43,325 bases of DNA. It comes from a virus. Position numbers and translations under genes: made by a program. Position 1 is the stretch's first letter. Each line of letters starts with the position of its first letter. The stretch spans positions 1 to 43,325 of the IMG/VR virus record IMGVR_UViG_3300020202_000123; one strand, given 5' to 3'. Shown here one piece after another: positions 14,124-43,325 of the stretch. The notes beneath the pieces are model-generated. The model was given only the letters and a program-made list of their open reading frames with translations, had not been told where the DNA came from and ran no database searches.

Positions 14124-14654
14124 CTATTCCAAACAACCAGGATTAAATGATGGGATTGAAATATCTCCCTTACTAATACCGTTCTCAACGAATAACTGAA
14201 CGTCCGTTAGATAGCTGTCGATGCTGGCCTTAGATCGAATGAGAGCAATTTTCGTTTTCTTAGTCAGCACTTCAATAGCCTTCTTTTTCAGATTAGAGAA
14301 TGAATCAAGCTCCTCACCCCAACGAGCGAGTAAGAAATGCTTGTCATACCAATCGTATTGTTGGTCTTTTTCTTTGGATTTCTCTCGACCAATAAGTATT
14401 GGATCTTTGACTTCGTACAGGTCGCTTTCCCAAACCTCGAACTTATAGAAACGGTCTTTGGTCATTTCGACGATTTCTTTAACACGTTCAGGAATATCAA
14501 CGTCAGCCGCTATCTGTTCTGCCGTTAGCGTTGATTTAGTTGGACAGAGCACCCCATAGACACCAGCCTGTTCCTTGTTGAATTTAGCGAACTGTAATAA
14601 CTGCTCCTGTGTTTCTGCATTAACCTCTGCTACGTTCATTATCTCTACCTTCAT
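14124..14654 (-). CDS. hypothetical early protein downstream of RNA element, ~176 aa
   Basis: ATG at 14654 has GAGGGGGAG as ribosome site; ATG at 14669 is an alternative. The protein has an N-terminal domain with a VNAETQEQLLQFAKFNKEQAG helix and a C-terminal domain rich in Lys and Asp (KEKDQQYDWYDKHFLLARWGEELDSFSNLKKKAIEVLTKK). No cysteine cluster or membrane span is present and no family is recognised. It is the first gene after the structured region 14670-14878, so its translation may be controlled by it. Confidence 0.6.
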   Translation of the reverse strand: MKVEIMNVAEVNAETQEQLLQFAKFNKEQAGVYGVLCPTKSTLTAEQIAADVDIPERVKEIVEMTKDRFYKFEVWESDLYEVKDPILIGREKSKEKDQQYDWYDKHFLLARWGEELDSFSNLKKKAIEVLTKKTKIALIRSKASIDSYLTDVQLFVENGISKGDISIPSFNPGCLE

Positions 14655-14695
14655 AACTCCCCCTCTCATCGTTGATGTTGCTTGTGGAAAATTGG

Positions 14696-14740
14696 GCCTT
14701 CTCTCAGGCTGTCACGCATTGTTTTACAGGGCATCCGCGT
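14696..14740 (-). ncRNA. paired-hairpin RNA element, copy A
   Basis: On the minus strand the first hairpin has a stem ACGC/GCGT (14740-14737 with 14717-14714) and a 19-base loop containing TGTAAA. A 4-base spacer GACA follows, then the second hairpin GCCT-GAGAGA-AGGC (14709-14696). The layout, the TGTAAA, the spacer size and the GAGAGA loop recur at 19181-19220, and the stems differ there by compensating base pairs. It lies 41 bases before the start codon at 14654. Cis-regulatory leader or small RNA is inferred. Confidence 0.6.
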
Positions 14741-14810
14741 TCATGGCTCAACGTATATACGCTGTCGCTATCCCCGACCATACCTGTCGATATGGACTGC
14801 AACTTATTTT

Positions 14811-14875
14811 CCGCATAGCCTAGACTTCCGGGTTTCCAGCGTGTCCTCTAATAGCTATGCGGTCGGTAGCTGGAA
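14811..14875 (-). ncRNA. predicted H-type pseudoknot after methyltransferase stop
   Basis: Two perfect stems interleave on the minus strand: GCTGGAA (plus 14869-14875) with TTCCAGC (14834-14840), 7 pairs, and GCTATGCGG (14854-14862) with CCGCATAGC (14811-14819), 9 pairs. The order of the arms is stem1-stem2-stem1'-stem2', which is a pseudoknot with loops of 6, 13 and 14 bases. It starts 3 bases after the methyltransferase stop codon. Confidence 0.5.
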
Positions 14876-14878
14876 AGT

Positions 14879-15535
14879 TCACAGCATCATCCTTTGCGTA
14901 TTCTGTAACCGTTTCTTGGCTATCTCGCAGTATTTGGGATTGATTTCGATTCCGATTCCTGTACGCCCGATTTCTTTGCAAGCCAAAAGGGTTGTGCCGC
15001 TTCCCATGAACGGATCGAGAACAACTTGGCCGACGTTACATTCGATAATTCGACGCATAAGGTTCACAGGTTTTTGTGTCGGGTGGTAATCGTTACCAGT
15101 TCTATCGGCGGTTATAACGTCAGGGATTCGCTCTAGAAATTCGTGATCTACCTTCGGATAAAATAAACAAGATTCCCATTGTCTGCCGTGTTCATGTTTC
15201 AAATCGCCCATTGACCAATTATTCTTCACCCAGGCAATTACGCTTTTAGGCTTAGGAAACTCGATCAAGTTATCCCAACGGCAGAACACATACCCCCCCC
15301 TGTTAGCCATAGCCAAAGCTAATTTGATTGTTTCGATAGGGAGCTTGTCGTCACCGTGGATTTTTTCGTGCTTGTCCTCTCTAAAATTGCTTTGAAAGCT
15401 CATCCCATAAGGCGGGTCCATAACAACGAGGTCGACCTGATCGAGTAACGGCATAATCTCCAAGCAATCTCCCATGTAAATCTTTAGGGATGGGTTTTCT
15501 TCTTCGTAGTAGAGATAATCCGACAGTTGCTTCAA
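14879..15535 (-). CDS. orphan DNA methyltransferase (N6-adenine or N4-cytosine, beta class), 218 aa
   Basis: TTG at 15535 behind GGGGAGGGG. Catalytic motif IV is DPPY at about residue 40 (VVMDPPYGMSF), and the AdoMet motif I is DPFMGSGTT at about 174, so the order IV-then-I puts it in the beta class with the N6/N4 methylase fold. The motif HPTQKPVNLM upstream of motif I is also typical. The product transfers a methyl group from AdoMet to A or C in DNA. No partner restriction enzyme is nearby, so protection against host restriction or a regulatory role is likely. The target cannot be told from sequence. Confidence 0.9.
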   Translation of the reverse strand: MKQLSDYLYYEEENPSLKIYMGDCLEIMPLLDQVDLVVMDPPYGMSFQSNFREDKHEKIHGDDKLPIETIKLALAMANRGGYVFCRWDNLIEFPKPKSVIAWVKNNWSMGDLKHEHGRQWESCLFYPKVDHEFLERIPDVITADRTGNDYHPTQKPVNLMRRIIECNVGQVVLDPFMGSGTTLLACKEIGRTGIGIEINPKYCEIAKKRLQNTQRMML

Positions 15536-15541
15536 GACCCC

Positions 15542-15564
15542 TCCCCATTAGATTTGGATGGGGA
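15542..15564 (-). promoter_or_regulatory. hairpin overlapping methyltransferase ribosome site
   Basis: On the minus strand TCCCCAT pairs with ATGGGGA (7 perfect pairs, 9-base loop), and its 3' arm forms the first part of the GGGGAGGGG Shine-Dalgarno site of the TTG-started methyltransferase. It could limit translation. Confidence 0.4.
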
Positions 15565-15574
15565 TTTGGGGGAC

Positions 15575-15865
15575 TTATTCCTCATCATCGACAACCTCGC
15601 AAGATTCAACATTCACATCATCAATTTCCATATCGGACGAGGTAAATTCATCCTTAGCAAACTCTTCAGCTTCTTCTTTGTCGTGGGCTTTTACCTTTAC
15701 CGTGAATGAACCGCTAACGGACAGGGTGACTTCGTAAGTGTCCATCTTTGCTTCTTCGGCTTCACGCTCTAGATCACGCTCAAAGCTACGGACGGCAGAA
15801 ACAATTTCAGGATCACCGAATACGAGCTTTCTCTTGCCAGCCTTAATTTCGTCTATAACTCTCAT
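15575..15865 (-). CDS. acidic hypothetical protein, 96 aa
   Basis: ATG at 15865 with GGGAGGGGGAAG upstream, in an ATGA joint with the zinc-ribbon gene before it. N-terminal helix (IDEIKAGKRK) then charged helix (FERDLEREAEEAK), then a DTYEVTLSVSGSFTVKVKAHDKEEAEEFAKDEF segment, a strand-strand-helix pattern seen in small phage proteins of the type Y.V.....g...v.a.s.eeA.e.A. The C-terminus is very acidic. A DNA-mimic role is conceivable but not shown. Confidence 0.65.
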   Translation of the reverse strand: MRVIDEIKAGKRKLVFGDPEIVSAVRSFERDLEREAEEAKMDTYEVTLSVSGSFTVKVKAHDKEEAEEFAKDEFTSSDMEIDDVNVESCEVVDDEE

Positions 15866-16023
15866 TTCTTCCCCCTCCCATCCTCTTCGGCTTGTATAGG
15901 GGACTTTTCGGACAGCTTCTTCTTCCACTCCGAAGGCTCCCCACAGGCAAAACAGTGAGAATGTCCGGCGTAATTTTGAGCCTCACATTTTTCACAACGA
16001 ACAATATCAAACGGCGTTGTCAC
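15862..16023 (-). CDS. zinc-ribbon peptide, 53 aa
   Basis: GTG at 16023 with GGGGGACT upstream; the stop forms an ATGA joint with the next gene. CEKC at residues 10-13 and CFAC at 24-27 make a compact double-knuckle zinc ribbon. The tail is Lys/Glu-rich and has the KSP segment that recurs in other small proteins of this arm (for example the ends of the genes at 12119 and 25583). Confidence 0.6.
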   Translation of the reverse strand: MTTPFDIVRCEKCEAQNYAGHSHCFACGEPSEWKKKLSEKSPIQAEEDGRGKK

Positions 16024-16312
16024 TTAGTCCCCCTTCGGTTTGTATTTGAGTGCGAACGCTTTTCACGATGTATCTATGAATATCCTCGGCTATTTCTTCA
16101 TACGACCCATCTTCCCAACGACCAGGAGCGTAAAGAGGGTCTAATGCTTCAACCTTCTGCAGCAACGCCTCCATTCCCTCTCGTCTAGCTTGGGTGAGGG
16201 CTTTGTCGGCATGACGGACAACAAACTTATTTACGCCTCCCTGCTGTTGAAAAGATTTGATTACCTTTTCCGTTAGCTCTCTCGCTATCTCATTGGACTT
16301 TGAGGGGGTCAT
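16007..16312 (-). CDS. hypothetical helical protein, 101 aa
   Basis: ATG at 16312. Nearly all helix, with SNEIARELTEKVIKSFQQQ, then ALTQARREGMEALLQKVEAL and YEEIAEDIHRYIVKSV. The middle motif ARREGMEALLQKVEAL occurs in several phage small proteins of unknown function. It overlaps its neighbours on both sides. Confidence 0.6.
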   Translation of the reverse strand: MTPSKSNEIARELTEKVIKSFQQQGGVNKFVVRHADKALTQARREGMEALLQKVEALDPLYAPGRWEDGSYEEIAEDIHRYIVKSVRTQIQTEGGLSDNAV

Positions 16313-16572
16313 TCCATCTCCTGAATCTTGGCTTTGATGGCTTTAGAGATTGCCTCAGCAGTATTCCTAGCCTCATGTAACAAGGCGAACTCATCAGCAA
16401 TCCCCGCCGCAATTTCTAGGCCCGATTTATAGGCGTCGAGAAGCTCTTTAGCAATTAACTCTGTCATTTGCCGCTTTTCTTGTTTATCTAGATATGATGA
16501 GTCGTACATGATTACGTTGTTGATTGCTTCGACTATCTCTCGAGCTTTATTTTCGGAGTAGTTGGTGGTCAT
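16309..16572 (-). CDS. hypothetical helical protein, 87 aa
   Basis: ATG at 16572 in the junction word AAATGACC. Helical, with ENKAREIVEAINNVIMY and a C-terminal ARNTAEAISKAIKAKIQ. Its layout is like that of the gene that follows it, so the two could be diverged duplicates; sequence identity is low by eye. Function unknown. Confidence 0.55.
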   Translation of the reverse strand: MTTNYSENKAREIVEAINNVIMYDSSYLDKQEKRQMTELIAKELLDAYKSGLEIAAGIADEFALLHEARNTAEAISKAIKAKIQEME

Positions 16573-16703
16573 TTAATCAGCCCCACTATTCCCGCAACGC
16601 AAGCACACCTTACAACGAACCCGAGCCAAAAGTGGGGCTTGTCGTTAACCGTAAAATTCATACCGTTAACTAGAATTAGGAGGGCTATGGCGATGAGTTT
16701 CAT
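16569..16703 (-). CDS. small membrane protein, 44 aa
   Basis: ATG at 16703 gives MKLIAIALLILVNGMNF; the longer frame from 16760 lies inside the previous gene. There are two hydrophobic stretches (residues 2-13 and 28-43) with a polar NDKPHFW loop, so a two-span hairpin is likely. ATGA joint with the gene before. Confidence 0.55.
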   Translation of the reverse strand: MKLIAIALLILVNGMNFTVNDKPHFWLGFVVRCACVAGIVGLIK

Positions 16704-16927
16704 TTCAATTTTCCTATGTTGTCGAGCATTGTTTGTCTTGCGTCGTTCCAGCCGTCGCACATATGGGGCGTATGGTAGCTATAACCACAACCCTTACACT
16801 CAGCCACCACAAGCGATTCCATGAGGTCGATCAGGGCGAGGCGGGTGTTATCTACGCTTTCACCGCCAATAGTGCAGTTCAGAAGTATCTCCTCCATCCG
16901 AGCTTTGGGGTCTTTGAGGGATGTCAT
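16700..16927 (-). CDS. hypothetical protein with zinc-like motif, 75 aa
   Basis: ATG at 16927 (in-frame ATG at 16945 is within the previous gene). An N-terminal helical half (ARMEEILLNC, LALIDLMESLVV) is followed by ECKGCGYSYHTPHMCDGW, where CxxC, two His and one Cys can bind zinc. Function unknown. Confidence 0.55.
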   Translation of the reverse strand: MTSLKDPKARMEEILLNCTIGGESVDNTRLALIDLMESLVVAECKGCGYSYHTPHMCDGWNDARQTMLDNIGKLK

Positions 16928-17136
16928 TGAGCGTACTCCAAGCAACCCTCATCGAATTTTTCATAAGACGGAATAAAGTGTTTAGCCATTTCTAAGCTAT
17001 ATTCATGTTTCTTTCCATCGGTTATAACTCTTGTAATAGTTGCTCGAAGAAACACCTTGTCGCCAACCTTGAACTTTGGCTGACTCACTCTATTTACAAC
17101 TTCATTTTGTTTAAGGCGCTTTAATAGGTTCTTCAT
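16924..17136 (-). CDS. small beta-rich protein, 70 aa
   Basis: ATG at 17136. After a basic helix comes PKFKVGDKVFLRATITRVITDGKKHEYSLE, a pattern of a small SH3-like or KOW-like barrel (F.vGD.V...a.i..v...g....Y.l). Such domains occur in phage early proteins of unknown role. ATGA-type overlaps with both neighbours. Confidence 0.6.
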   Translation of the reverse strand: MKNLLKRLKQNEVVNRVSQPKFKVGDKVFLRATITRVITDGKKHEYSLEMAKHFIPSYEKFDEGCLEYAQ

Positions 17137-17342
17137 TTCCCCTCCTTTTTCCTGGCATCAAGCATCGCGTCGGCATATTCATAAGCCCACTTAGCGCAGT
17201 TTTTATTGTTTGCAAAAGCACTCTGAGGATTATCTTGATCAGCACATATGATTAAAGCCGCCATAGCCTTCGCCGCGAAGTAGTCACGGAGGGACATCCC
17301 AGCCATCTCTGTATAATGAGTAGGAAACGCTGGTTCGTTCAT
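17133..17342 (-). CDS. conserved phage small protein (GMSLRDYFAAKA type), 69 aa
   Basis: ATG at 17342. The motif GMSLRDYFAAKAMAALI near the centre and WAYEYADAMLDAR at the end are the marks of a very widespread but uncharacterised phage protein family. The N-terminus NEPAFPTHYTE is also typical. It occurs near recombination and replication genes in many phages. Confidence 0.75.
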   Translation of the reverse strand: MNEPAFPTHYTEMAGMSLRDYFAAKAMAALIICADQDNPQSAFANNKNCAKWAYEYADAMLDARKKEGK

Positions 17343-17545
17343 TTCGCTCCCTCCAAGCTCTCGAGGAGGTGGGGGTGTTCAACCTTGACCCAGTAATGCC
17401 CAGACCCACTAAGCGCCTGACTGTAACCACCCTCAATAAACCTTTTTTCGATGTTGTAGTAGTAAAACGTAACGCAAACTATTAACGTCACAAGAATAAT
17501 GACGATACTGATGCATCCAACCAACCATTCATTTACTTCTCTCAT
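17339..17545 (-). CDS. one-span membrane protein, 68 aa
   Basis: ATG at 17545 with AGGAGGGGAT upstream. Residues 5-30 are a strong membrane segment (WLVGCISIVIILVTLIVCVTFYYY), followed by a polar tail of about 38 residues with GSGHYWVKVEHPHLLESL. Function unknown. Confidence 0.6.
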   Translation of the reverse strand: MREVNEWLVGCISIVIILVTLIVCVTFYYYNIEKRFIEGGYSQALSGSGHYWVKVEHPHLLESLEGAK

Positions 17546-17558
17546 ATCCCCTCCTCCT

Positions 17559-17618
17559 TTAACCCTTCTCACACTTACAGGACCAACTGAAACCGCACCA
17601 CCGGCACAAACTCTTCAT
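17559..17618 (-). CDS. cysteine-rich micro-peptide, 19 aa (tentative)
   Basis: An ATG at 17618 opens 19 codons with CRWCGFSWSCKC, which fits a zinc knuckle. AGGAG lies 11 bases upstream of it. It stands in the only gap between the neighbouring genes and resembles the other tiny Cys-rich frames of this arm, but such a short frame may arise by chance. Confidence 0.3.
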   Translation of the reverse strand: MKSLCRWCGFSWSCKCEKG

Positions 17619-17643
17619 ATTGATATCCACTCCTGTCACATCT

Positions 17644-17865
17644 TCACAAAGATTGATTTATCGGAACAGTCTTAAAAACAACATCGTTTGAATCAACAAG
17701 CTTAATTGTTTTAAAGGGCGTTCCAGCAAATTTATCGGACAATGCACTCATATTCGTGGCTGTTAAATCCTTTGCCCACTGCCATGGCAAATGCATTTCG
17801 GTAATTAGATAACCCTGTGAATACAGCTTATTAGCTACCCCTTCGATAATTTCTACTACGCTCAT
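17644..17865 (-). CDS. hypothetical protein, 73 aa
   Basis: ATG at 17865 overlapping the previous stop by 4 bases. Helix (VEIIEGVANKLYSQGYL) followed by mixed beta region. No cysteine pairs or membrane span. No family recognised. Confidence 0.55.
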   Translation of the reverse strand: MSVVEIIEGVANKLYSQGYLITEMHLPWQWAKDLTATNMSALSDKFAGTPFKTIKLVDSNDVVFKTVPINQSL

Positions 17866-18095
17866 GCAGCCCCCAATGCTTCAACCACCTGTTTGTAAAT
17901 ACGTCTAATTTGTCTCTCTTCAAGCTTGATACTTAATCCTTCCATCTCGGAGAATGTAAAAGCCCCAGACGCATGAAGCACCCAAATCGCTCTCTTCTGC
18001 CTTGGCAAATCTTTCAACAATCCTTCAGACCTTTTTGGCACCGCATGATAGAAACCAAATAGAACGTTTAGAGCCAGATGAATGCGCTGTATCAA
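17862..18095 (-). CDS. hypothetical protein with helix-turn-helix-like C-terminus, 77 aa
   Basis: A TTG at 18095 overlaps the previous TGA and has GGGAAGGAG upstream, which decides this start over the GTG/ATG further up. The C-terminal half (SGAFTFSEMEGLSIKLEERQIRRIYKQVVEAL) reads as a small DNA-binding helical bundle similar to sigma-like or terminase-small-like helices, without a sure match. Confidence 0.5.
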   Translation of the reverse strand: MIQRIHLALNVLFGFYHAVPKRSEGLLKDLPRQKRAIWVLHASGAFTFSEMEGLSIKLEERQIRRIYKQVVEALGAA

Positions 18096-18271
18096 TTCAA
18101 CTCCTTCCCAGTAAAAAACTCCCAAGTCGCCACACCCTTACACCGCCCATGCCTACTCACAAAATCACACCGCTCCCCATCCTTGTGCGCCTGGATCACC
18201 CCGCCATGCCCATTTGAGACATCCACATGCCTATCACACAGCGCATACCAACGATCCTTATTTATCTCCAC
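18092..18271 (-). CDS. small Cys/His-rich protein, 59 aa
   Basis: GTG at 18271 with AAAAAGGAAACTTC upstream. The peptide holds ALCDRHVDVSNGHGGV, ERCDFVSRHGRCKG, with three Cys and several His in a plausible zinc-binding spacing (C-x2-H ... C ... C). This frame is just under 60 codons. It overlaps the next gene by a TTGA joint. Confidence 0.6.
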   Translation of the reverse strand: MEINKDRWYALCDRHVDVSNGHGGVIQAHKDGERCDFVSRHGRCKGVATWEFFTGKELN

Positions 18272-18464
18272 GAAGTTTCCTTTTTTCTAATGCAACCAGA
18301 AAAGGGAGCGGTTCATAAGCACAATCCAAAATGTCCTGAGAATAATTCCTGAAGCATCTTCTAATTGCCATTCTCAACCATCTCGAGAGTATTGACTTTG
18401 GATACACCCCTGTCCTAATCGCCGCCCATCTCCAAAACCTCTTCCACACTCTTTTAATGTCCAC
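18258..18464 (-). CDS. basic hypothetical protein, 68 aa
   Basis: ATG at 18464. Very basic with many Trp and Arg (VWKRFWRWAAIRTGV, SRWLRMAIRRCFRNY). It may be an amphipathic DNA- or membrane-binding peptide. It overlaps both neighbours by about 11-14 bases, as in the rest of the operon. Confidence 0.5.
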   Translation of the reverse strand: MDIKRVWKRFWRWAAIRTGVYPKSILSRWLRMAIRRCFRNYSQDILDCAYEPLPFLVALEKRKLRGDK

Positions 18465-18705
18465 GACGCAGGAACCCCGGATTAATAAACTTCGGCCTCA
18501 CTTCAGTCTTCCCCACAATCTTTTTCTCCTCTGGCGTAGCCACTGACTCCAAATATCTCCGACAATGCGCCTCTTTCTCCCTCTGCGCCAACTCTGCCCG
18601 ATACTTCTTCTGATACTCTCTGTTGTAAAGCTTCGAGTATTCCAGCCGCTTCCTCTTTGCCTCGACCTTCTCTTCCTCAGTCTTCCACGGTCGACCTTTA
18701 GGCAA
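18454..18705 (-). CDS. basic helical protein, 83 aa or longer
   Basis: The frame is open from 18810, but its upstream part lies within the ERCC4 gene. A TTG at 18705 overlapping the ERCC4 stop has AAGGAAG upstream; an ATG at 18744 is the alternative. The product has WKTEEEKVEAKRKRLEYSK and YNREYQKKYRAELAQREKEAHCRRYLE, a long basic helix as in HNH-adjacent or nucleic-acid-binding phage proteins (a k..nReY..ky rae pattern). Function unknown. Confidence 0.5.
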   Translation of the reverse strand: MPKGRPWKTEEEKVEAKRKRLEYSKLYNREYQKKYRAELAQREKEAHCRRYLESVATPEEKKIVGKTEVRPKFINPGFLRRGH

Positions 18706-19141
18706 CTTGGCGGGCTTCCTTCTTCCAATAACGACCCACCGCATCAAACGTCTCGAATATGAACCTCGCCATCTCCTGCCGATTATTGAAGAAGTGATAC
18801 TCAAGGTCATATTTCACATGGAGCATCGCCAATTTCATCAGCATCGACTTCCCCTCAAACTGCGAGTGAGAGTAGCCTTCAAGAACATCTGCCATACTGT
18901 TTTCAATAACTAGAATCAACTTGACTTTTGAGTCCGCCGCCCTCTTCATCTCCGCCTTAAATCTGTCATAGCCGGATGTCATCGTGCCAAATAGATCCCC
19001 AAGCCCCTTCCTCTCAAACGAAATCGGCACAACCTTCCCATCAATCTCAGCCATGTAATCGCCGACATCTAACTTTCTTACTTCTGTCTCTATGTCAAAG
19101 ATCAACGGTAATTGCTCTCTTGTATCAACTAGAATCTTCAT
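18698..19141 (-). CDS. ERCC4-type (XPF-like) nuclease, 147 aa
   Basis: ATG at 19141 with GGGGGAAAGTG upstream. The fold signature is MKILVDTREQLPL at the start (DTRE), LDVGDYMAE at about 24-32, and ISFERKGLGDL at about 40-50, which together are the ERKxxxD/GDY active site of ERCC4 domain nucleases. Only the nuclease domain is present, without helicase or HhH. It is likely to cut branched DNA during replication or recombination. The gene follows RNA element copy B by about 40 bases. Confidence 0.88.
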   Translation of the reverse strand: MKILVDTREQLPLIFDIETEVRKLDVGDYMAEIDGKVVPISFERKGLGDLFGTMTSGYDRFKAEMKRAADSKVKLILVIENSMADVLEGYSHSQFEGKSMLMKLAMLHVKYDLEYHFFNNRQEMARFIFETFDAVGRYWKKEARQVA

Positions 19142-19277
19142 TCACTTTCCCCCAAGCTCCCCAGCTAAGGTTAAAGTGATGCCGTCTCTCCGGCTGCCAC
19201 GTCTTTACATCGCTTGACGTCTTGCGTTAGCGGGGGAGCTAAGCCCCCTGGTCAAAGGAAAGCAACCCGCCGCTAAA
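19142..19277 (-). other. structured 5' leader of the ERCC4 gene
   Basis: This 136-base gap holds no gene. On the minus strand it folds into a closing stem that pairs 19227-19240 with 19155-19168 (13 pairs with one mismatch) around the two-hairpin element 19181-19220. A competing GGGGG/CCCCC hairpin (19232-19248) uses the upstream arm. The downstream arm reaches to 14 bases before the start codon, near the ribosome site. Confidence 0.6.
19181..19220 (-). ncRNA. paired-hairpin RNA element, copy B
   Basis: First hairpin: ACGTC/GACGT (19220-19216 with 19203-19199) with a 12-base loop ending in TGTAAA. Spacer GGCA. Second hairpin: GCCG-GAGAGA-CGGC (19194-19181). Compared with copy A the fourth pair of hairpin two is G-C in place of T-A, and the fourth pair of hairpin one is T-A in place of C-G, both compensated. 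The distance to the next start is 39 bases, against 41 in copy A. Confidence 0.62.
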
Positions 19278-19493
19278 TTATTCCTTCCAAAAAATAACCT
19301 TACTACCCTCTCTCATCGAGTGAATCCGGCCCTCGTAGATTTTCTTCACAGCGGAGCGAACCCCTGAATCGATAATCTGAGGATCCGAACCGTTTGAAAC
19401 TTCCAGAGCCTGATTTCTGCGCAGAGCTTTTACCGCCTCCGCAACAGTTCGATACTTTGATGGCTTTCCCACTACTCTCATTTGAATGCTCAT
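19278..19493 (-). CDS. hypothetical protein, 71 aa
   Basis: ATG at 19493, ATGA joint with the DUF669-like gene. It has a helix-turn motif (YRTVAEAVKALRRNQALEV) followed by a basic beta region RSAVKKIYEGRIHSMREGSKVIFWKE. It could be a small DNA-binding accessory of the recombination genes. Not recognised. Confidence 0.55.
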   Translation of the reverse strand: MSIQMRVVGKPSKYRTVAEAVKALRRNQALEVSNGSDPQIIDSGVRSAVKKIYEGRIHSMREGSKVIFWKE

Positions 19494-42839: not shown

Positions 42840-43325
42840 CAGACTTTAGGATAGAGCGGAAGCAGACAACTTCCTCCGATATTGATCACAACTCGACAAC
42901 GAATCTTACTGTTGGAGATGTTCATACTCAATACGCCCTCTTAGCCGGTCGCTCAGGCGGTCAAACTCTCTACGGCGGCACGGCATCAGGCAACGGTCTA
43001 ACCCTCGCTTCAACCTCTCACAGCACGAAGGGGAAGATTTTCCTCGGTGCTCTTACCGCCTACGACGAGGTAAATGAACGTCTGGGTGTCGGAACAACGA
43101 GTCCGAGTAATAGGTTCCACGTCGTTCTAGTAGATACCGGTGTCGCTTCGATTACCGCCTCGTCGACGTCGATGACCCTGACTCCATCTAGCGACATCAC
43201 GTCGGGCAGCATTATCAGCGCCGGACTTAGCTCTGTCGTTACGACTACTGGAACTGCGTCTTTAACAGCGCTTCAGATTCGTGGTCTTTCATTTATCGTT
43301 GGTCACTCTGGTGATGGAACGCTCA
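42836..43325 (+). CDS. tail fibre protein, N-terminal part (continues at base 2)
   Basis: GTG at 42836 in a GTGA overlap. The N-terminus reads FRIERKQTTSSDIDHNSTTNLTVGDVHTQYALLAG, where the GDxHTQYxLLxG pattern is a frequent virion-binding or fibre-neck motif. A GxGTTSPSNRFHV repeat follows. The frame runs off the window end and continues at base 2 (first base of the window completes a codon) to 1270. Confidence 0.8.
   Translation, partial: MTDFRIERKQTTSSDIDHNSTTNLTVGDVHTQYALLAGRSGGQTLYGGTASGNGLTLASTSHSTKGKIFLGALTAYDEVNERLGVGTTSPSNRFHVVLVDTGVASITASSTSMTLTPSSDITSGSIISAGLSSVVTTTGTASLTALQIRGLSFIVGHSGDGTL
43222..43325. repeat. terminal direct repeat, right copy
   Basis: Identical to bases 1-104. 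Removing one copy leaves 43,221 bases and an uninterrupted fibre gene. Confidence 0.95.

Follow-up and report, generated by a model that had tools for sequence, protein, structure and literature searches.

A widespread paired-hairpin RNA family of phages and prophages, with two copies in one viral genome

Small structured RNAs of several kinds have been described in phages. The put RNAs of phage HK022 are about 70 nt long, comprise two stem-loops, and are present in two copies per phage (PMC9378689). Theta ribozymes, which are HDV-like, are found in gut phages, where they adjoin tRNAs at the 3' end (PMC10879173). The abiF RNA is the antitoxin of AbiF, as has been proven in C. difficile (PMC12373285). 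Here we describe an element of two adjacent hairpins that was noticed in a single viral record, IMGVR_UViG_3300020202_000123, all 43,325 nucleotides of which constitute the stretch of DNA that was analysed (hereafter, the window). The two copies in the window belong to a widespread structured-RNA family of phages and prophages that, judged by Rfam 15 and an incomplete literature, would be a new family within a general kind that is already known.

Two copies of the element in the window

The window is terminally redundant: because its ends are identical over 104 bp (1-104 and 43222-43325), it is probably a complete virus genome. The plus strand carries structural genes, for example that for an SU10-type portal, and the minus strand carries the early genes. 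The sequence-only reading had placed two copies of the element on the minus strand at 14696-14740 and 19181-19220, and both the positions and the strand were correct; each copy lies in an intergenic gap, and the two are 4.5 kb apart on one gene strand. Covariance model R1, which had both window copies among its building sequences, scored copy 1 (14696-14740) at 47.3 bits (E 4e-11) and copy 2 (19181-19220) at 44.7 bits. This calibrated model revealed no third copy in the window, the next score being 8.9 bits.

Copy 1 consists of hairpin 1 (14714-14740), the spacer GACA, and hairpin 2 (14696-14709). Hairpin 1 pairs ACGCG (14740-14736) with TGCGT (14718-14714) around a 17-nt loop that includes TGTAAA, and hairpin 2 reads GCCT-GAGAGA-AGGC. 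In copy 2 the spacer is GGCA; hairpin 1 (19199-19220) pairs ACGTC (19220-19216) with GACGT (19203-19199) around a 12-nt loop that again includes TGTAAA, although single-sequence folding prefers an ACGTC/GATGT pairing, and hairpin 2 (19181-19194) reads GCCG-GAGAGA-CGGC. The layout originally proposed, of hairpin 1, a spacer GRCA, and hairpin 2 with the loop GAGAGA, is thus common to both copies, and the two paired changes noted between them (C-G to T-A in hairpin 1, and T-A to G-C in hairpin 2) were read correctly. The TGTAAA motif is present in both hairpin-1 loops as claimed; as a signature of the family it was rejected, the full pattern being found in just two further viral contigs.

Both copies precede a start codon at the distances first given, copy 1 lying 41 nt before ATG 14654 and copy 2 lying 39 nt before ATG 19141. 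The gene downstream of copy 1 (14124-14654, minus strand) encodes 176 aa with a weak likeness to phage CII that falls below the Pfam cut-off, and the gene downstream of copy 2 (18698-19141, minus strand) encodes an ERCC4-type nuclease of 147 aa.

Taken alone, the window does not exclude chance. At up to 3 mismatches 0.71 pattern matches are expected, as compared with the two exact matches found, and the fold z-scores of the window copies are only -0.8 and -1.7. The element is considered real because sequences outside the window carry the same structure. One of these, viral contig L003, is 78% identical over 110 bp to window positions 14688-14797, a stretch that includes the element and the flank upstream of copy 1 (14741-14797, minus strand). 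That flank and L003:2737-2804 (minus strand) form a further conserved stretch, within which lies a hairpin, CCATA-TCGACAGG-TATGG; this stretch might be a second RNA element.

Structure and distribution of the family

To define the family we took advantage of a hairpin-2 core pattern, GTGRCAGCCNGAGAGANGGC, for which 3-4 chance matches were estimated in the viral collection; at least 118 viral contigs carried it, so that well over a hundred viruses of bacteria, unrelated to one another, share the element. The variable fourth pair of hairpin 2 was intact in all 123 of the copies counted. When hairpin 1, the spacer, and the loop were held fixed and the stem of hairpin 2 was left free, 89 of 97 copies had all four pairs, as compared with 38 when partners were permuted, and the stems included GCCG/CGGC, CTGG/CTAG, GTCG/CGAC, and GCTG/CAGC, as well as GCAG/CTGC and others. 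Hairpin 1 was assessed in copies picked by hairpin 2 alone, ignoring hairpin 1. An exact 5-bp partner of the hairpin-1 strand was present within 30 nt in 82 of 197 such copies, against 13.8 expected and a maximum of 26 in 2000 permutations. Many further copies pair imperfectly or in a shifted register, and hairpin 1 thus varies more from copy to copy than hairpin 2 does.

In an alignment of 65 sequences, 99% of cells were paired and 75 cells carried two-sided changes; the covariation score was 0.448 as compared with 0.105 for shuffled alignments, a figure that is not independent because hairpin 1 had been partly selected for pairing. The loop, when left free, was GAGAGA in 96 of approximately 112 copies, with the remainder made up of near variants and roughly as many chance matches as expected, and the spacer, when left free, was GACA in 48 of 54. 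The copies from the viral collection therefore support the prediction that the element is a structured RNA with covariation among its homologues. In this family, hairpin 1 has AC followed by about three covarying pairs and a variable loop, the spacer GACA is near-invariant, and hairpin 2 has 4-5 covarying pairs closed by the near-invariant loop GAGAGA. No additional stem around the two hairpins is supported: the longer closing stem of the sequence-only reading is not conserved, with a mean best stem of 6.7 as compared with 6.4 for permuted 40-nt flanks, and there was no excess over permuted sequence in 14-nt flanks.

We compared the element with known RNA families. At the gathering score, Rfam 15 identified nothing but tRNAs across the window and 20 element loci, and at E values of up to 5 no family matched the element within window positions 14550-19400. 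The supposition that the element falls outside the named families is therefore upheld in the window, where C4, like every other Rfam 15 family, was unmatched. No description of the motif was found in the literature, of which the coverage was partial.

The family is borne by phages and prophages, mostly on the transcribed strand. Named phages that carry it are Itty13, phiSHP3, IME1369_02, and EBPR podovirus 1. When 84,980 bacterial and archaeal genomes were scanned with the pattern, 91 stretches were identified, as compared with approximately 15 estimated by chance; these were mostly in Pseudomonadota, with some in Oscillospiraceae, Planctomycetota, and Bacteroidales. The phage hosts span several phyla, with Pseudomonadota, Bacillota, Planctomycetota, and Bacteroidota among the genome matches. 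Model searches of sampled bacterial genomes matched 1 of 274, 4 of 337, and 2 of 341 (seed genomes counted in), and a host chromosomal home of the element was not found in the samples of Gammaproteobacteria, Alphaproteobacteria, and Clostridia. One copy per record is usual (36 of 40 virus records); the other four records, which include the window, have two. In about ten loci, two or three copies stand in tandem inside one spacer. Phage Itty13 has a noncoding region of approximately 900 bases (within L123:6500-7900) that contains two element copies and tRNA-like sequences, and that lies between divergent gene blocks upstream of the small terminase gene.

Neighbours of the element and its possible role

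Two kinds of RNA gene recur beside the element. The first is tRNA: in 45 element-tRNA pairs within 500 nt, the two were always on the same strand, and in one contig (L137) the element is fitted between two tRNAs. Separately, in the bacterial genome contigs L235, L246, L254, L291, L300, L309, and L315, which are mostly alphaproteobacterial, the element is preceded at 65-213 nt by a tRNA-Met gene, and in viral contig L155 (4604-4986, minus strand) ARAGORN called a permuted tmRNA that adjoins a tRNA-Cys and the element.

The second is an abiF-type RNA, which is flanked by element copies in one freshwater phage lineage and in a few other loci. Within 2.8 Mb of element loci the abiF core motif had eight matches, six of which were on the same strand as the element and within 180 nt of it, with a seventh (L184) by pattern coordinates. 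In the reverse scan, the abiF pattern CCGCCAAG...CTCAAAYCGGCGG was present in at least 46 viral contigs, in phage intergenic regions, and the element stood beside the abiF-type RNA in about 15 of 43 new contigs. These phage motifs score 29 bits, below the Rfam cut-off of 37. Because 19 of the 23 double loci fall in one cluster by DNA similarity (there are three further clusters), this association is drawn mostly from a single freshwater lineage. Loci in which the abiF-type RNA is an orphan include L323, L324, L338, L349, L354, L028, and L172, among others, and no Abi_2 gene was found in 25 element-bearing virus records, including the window. We also asked whether Abi_2 systems might use the element as their RNA and rejected this, as it is absent by pattern at 48 Abi_2 loci and also by model at 46 of them; a host counterpart was found just for the neighbouring abiF-type RNA.

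Given that the element is present mostly in single copy, sometimes in tandem sets, among unrelated neighbours, and in the company of orphan antitoxin-like RNAs and tRNAs, we tentatively favor a phage RNA that acts in trans and may serve as a decoy for a defence effector under RNA control. The element would be produced within a phage transcript and would act as an RNA in trans, independently of the adjacent gene. Because the spacer and loop of this motif of approximately 45 nt are near-constant, a conserved partner is probable, presumably a host factor that would bind these parts; the leading candidate for this factor is a defence effector regulated by RNA, which the element might occupy or neutralise as orphan antitoxin RNAs would. 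In the suggestion of a small regulatory RNA of the immunity type, action in trans is possible, and the immunity type itself is conjectural. Several observations weigh against a decoy: the abiF association is mostly that of a single lineage, and its phage motif scores below the Rfam cut-off; no host defence locus carrying the element RNA was found among the 48 Abi_2 loci and the sampled bacterial genomes, in which the element is rare; copies lie near gene and tRNA starts, a placement that a free decoy would not need; and a variant in an E. coli prophage lies behind a promoter-like site, in the manner of an antiterminator.

That variant bears on a second explanation, a put-like antitermination RNA, which we regard as unlikely though still live: the nascent two-hairpin RNA would bind the host elongation complex and allow readthrough of terminators in long phage operons. 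Among RNAs of comparable layout, put is the best-known precedent (PMC9378689). Of 5426 complete E. coli genomes, 424 (about 8%) had a match to the variant; in the one genome inspected, SA186 (442213-442303, L491:4985-5075), the variant has the loop GAAAGA and is flanked by a repressor-type gene and an early operon in prophage DNA that is not annotated, within a leader of approximately 1 kb that lacks annotated genes. This leader contains two GAAAGA-type hairpins, as compared with 0.05 expected from mononucleotide shuffles, and the first scores 25 bits. The variant is approximately 40-75 nt behind a weak promoter-like site, but such a site is no commoner than in shuffles, which give 0.8. In EBPR podovirus 1, too, the copy is near the start of the early genes, and untranslated tRNA stretches would gain from antitermination. 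Nevertheless, a position just behind an early promoter fits the one E. coli prophage and not the window copies, which are a pair 4.5 kb apart on a single gene strand, nor the copies behind the major capsid gene; other copies are inside operons or directly before tRNAs, sometimes in triple tandem. HK022 itself has no match to the element at up to 3 mismatches, and shorter core matches there are at chance level in the motif search. An inverted-repeat search of the HK022 immunity region did not recover put, and its longest repeat looks to be repressor-type coding sequence.

It is also rather improbable, in our estimation, though again a live reading, that the element serves RNA processing, as a self-cleaving ribozyme or a nuclease site that would cut the transcript ahead of whichever tRNA or gene follows. 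Hairpin 2 is followed after 5-13 nt by the start of a same-strand tRNA in 13 loci, predicted gene starts cluster approximately 20-30 nt past hairpin 2 (by crude gene calls), and the theta ribozymes of phages adjoin tRNAs (PMC10879173). Those ribozymes, however, are at the 3' end of the tRNA and the element is on the 5' side; none of the Rfam ribozyme models matched in the scanned sequences, a further stem around the hairpins is not supported, and with usually one copy per genome, most tRNAs and genes are without one.

The cis-acting leader of the sequence-only reading, in the form of a riboswitch or translation control of the following gene, is still less probable. Its positional part stands, in that copies do lie upstream of starts, at a median of 48 nt in 57 measurable cases; for the window copies the distances are 41 nt (copy 1) and 39 nt (copy 2). 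The downstream genes, however, share no function: no PHROG or Pfam family occurred more than twice in the 107 proteins scanned, and the copy-1 RNA precedes a different gene in L003, one that by eye looks unrelated to the window gene. Because the downstream genes are unrelated and copies also precede tRNAs, gene-specific control is unlikely.

That a coding or DNA-level repeat was mistaken for an RNA is highly improbable: an open frame, VTAGETAP, runs over the element in some alphaproteobacterial prophages, but one such frame (L235) also covers a tRNA, in window copy 1 a stop interrupts the VTAGETA frame, the paired changes alter amino acids, the pairing tests contradict it, and copies between or just before tRNAs are noncoding. 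The conserved peptide named at the outset as the competing explanation was rejected.

Significance and comparison with known systems

The non-coding space of phages is poorly annotated. We think it possible, though rather doubtful, that the element represents a large unlisted class of phage RNA that joins tRNAs and orphan abiF-type RNAs in compact anti-defence RNA arrays; if that were true, it would lead to a new RNA-controlled defence effector across several bacterial phyla. Identification of the partner would bring to light either a new way in which RNA is used to escape defence, or else a new RNA with control over RNA processing or the host RNA polymerase. Because a variant is present in approximately 8% of complete E. 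coli genomes, the element is accessible to tests in a laboratory organism.

Type III antitoxin RNA mimics of phages and RNA anti-CRISPRs act as the proposed decoy would, whereas for the element no cognate host RNA or effector was found. TIGR arrays were considered as a relative, and their repeats differ in having UG/CCA boxes. The C4 antisense RNA (RF01695) is likewise a small phage RNA, yet the element does not match its model. Theta ribozymes resemble the element as small structured RNAs near phage tRNAs, though their fold is HDV-like, at the tRNA 3' end, and that of the element is two simple hairpins on the tRNA 5' side. Like the element, the abiF RNA (RF03085) is a short structured phage RNA that may stand in tandem, and it adjoins the element in several phages. 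It is also found in defence loci, and it differs in sequence and fold, having one stem with an internal loop; the RF03085 covariance model did not match the element, and its matches to the separate neighbouring motif were below cut-off. The put RNAs (putL and putR) are located in phage early transcripts and share with the element two adjacent hairpins and, as in the window, two copies per phage. They differ from it in that stem II of put is long and bulged, whereas hairpin 2 of the element has 4-5 bp and a constant hexaloop, and in that HK022 carries two copies, whereas most viruses with the element carry one.
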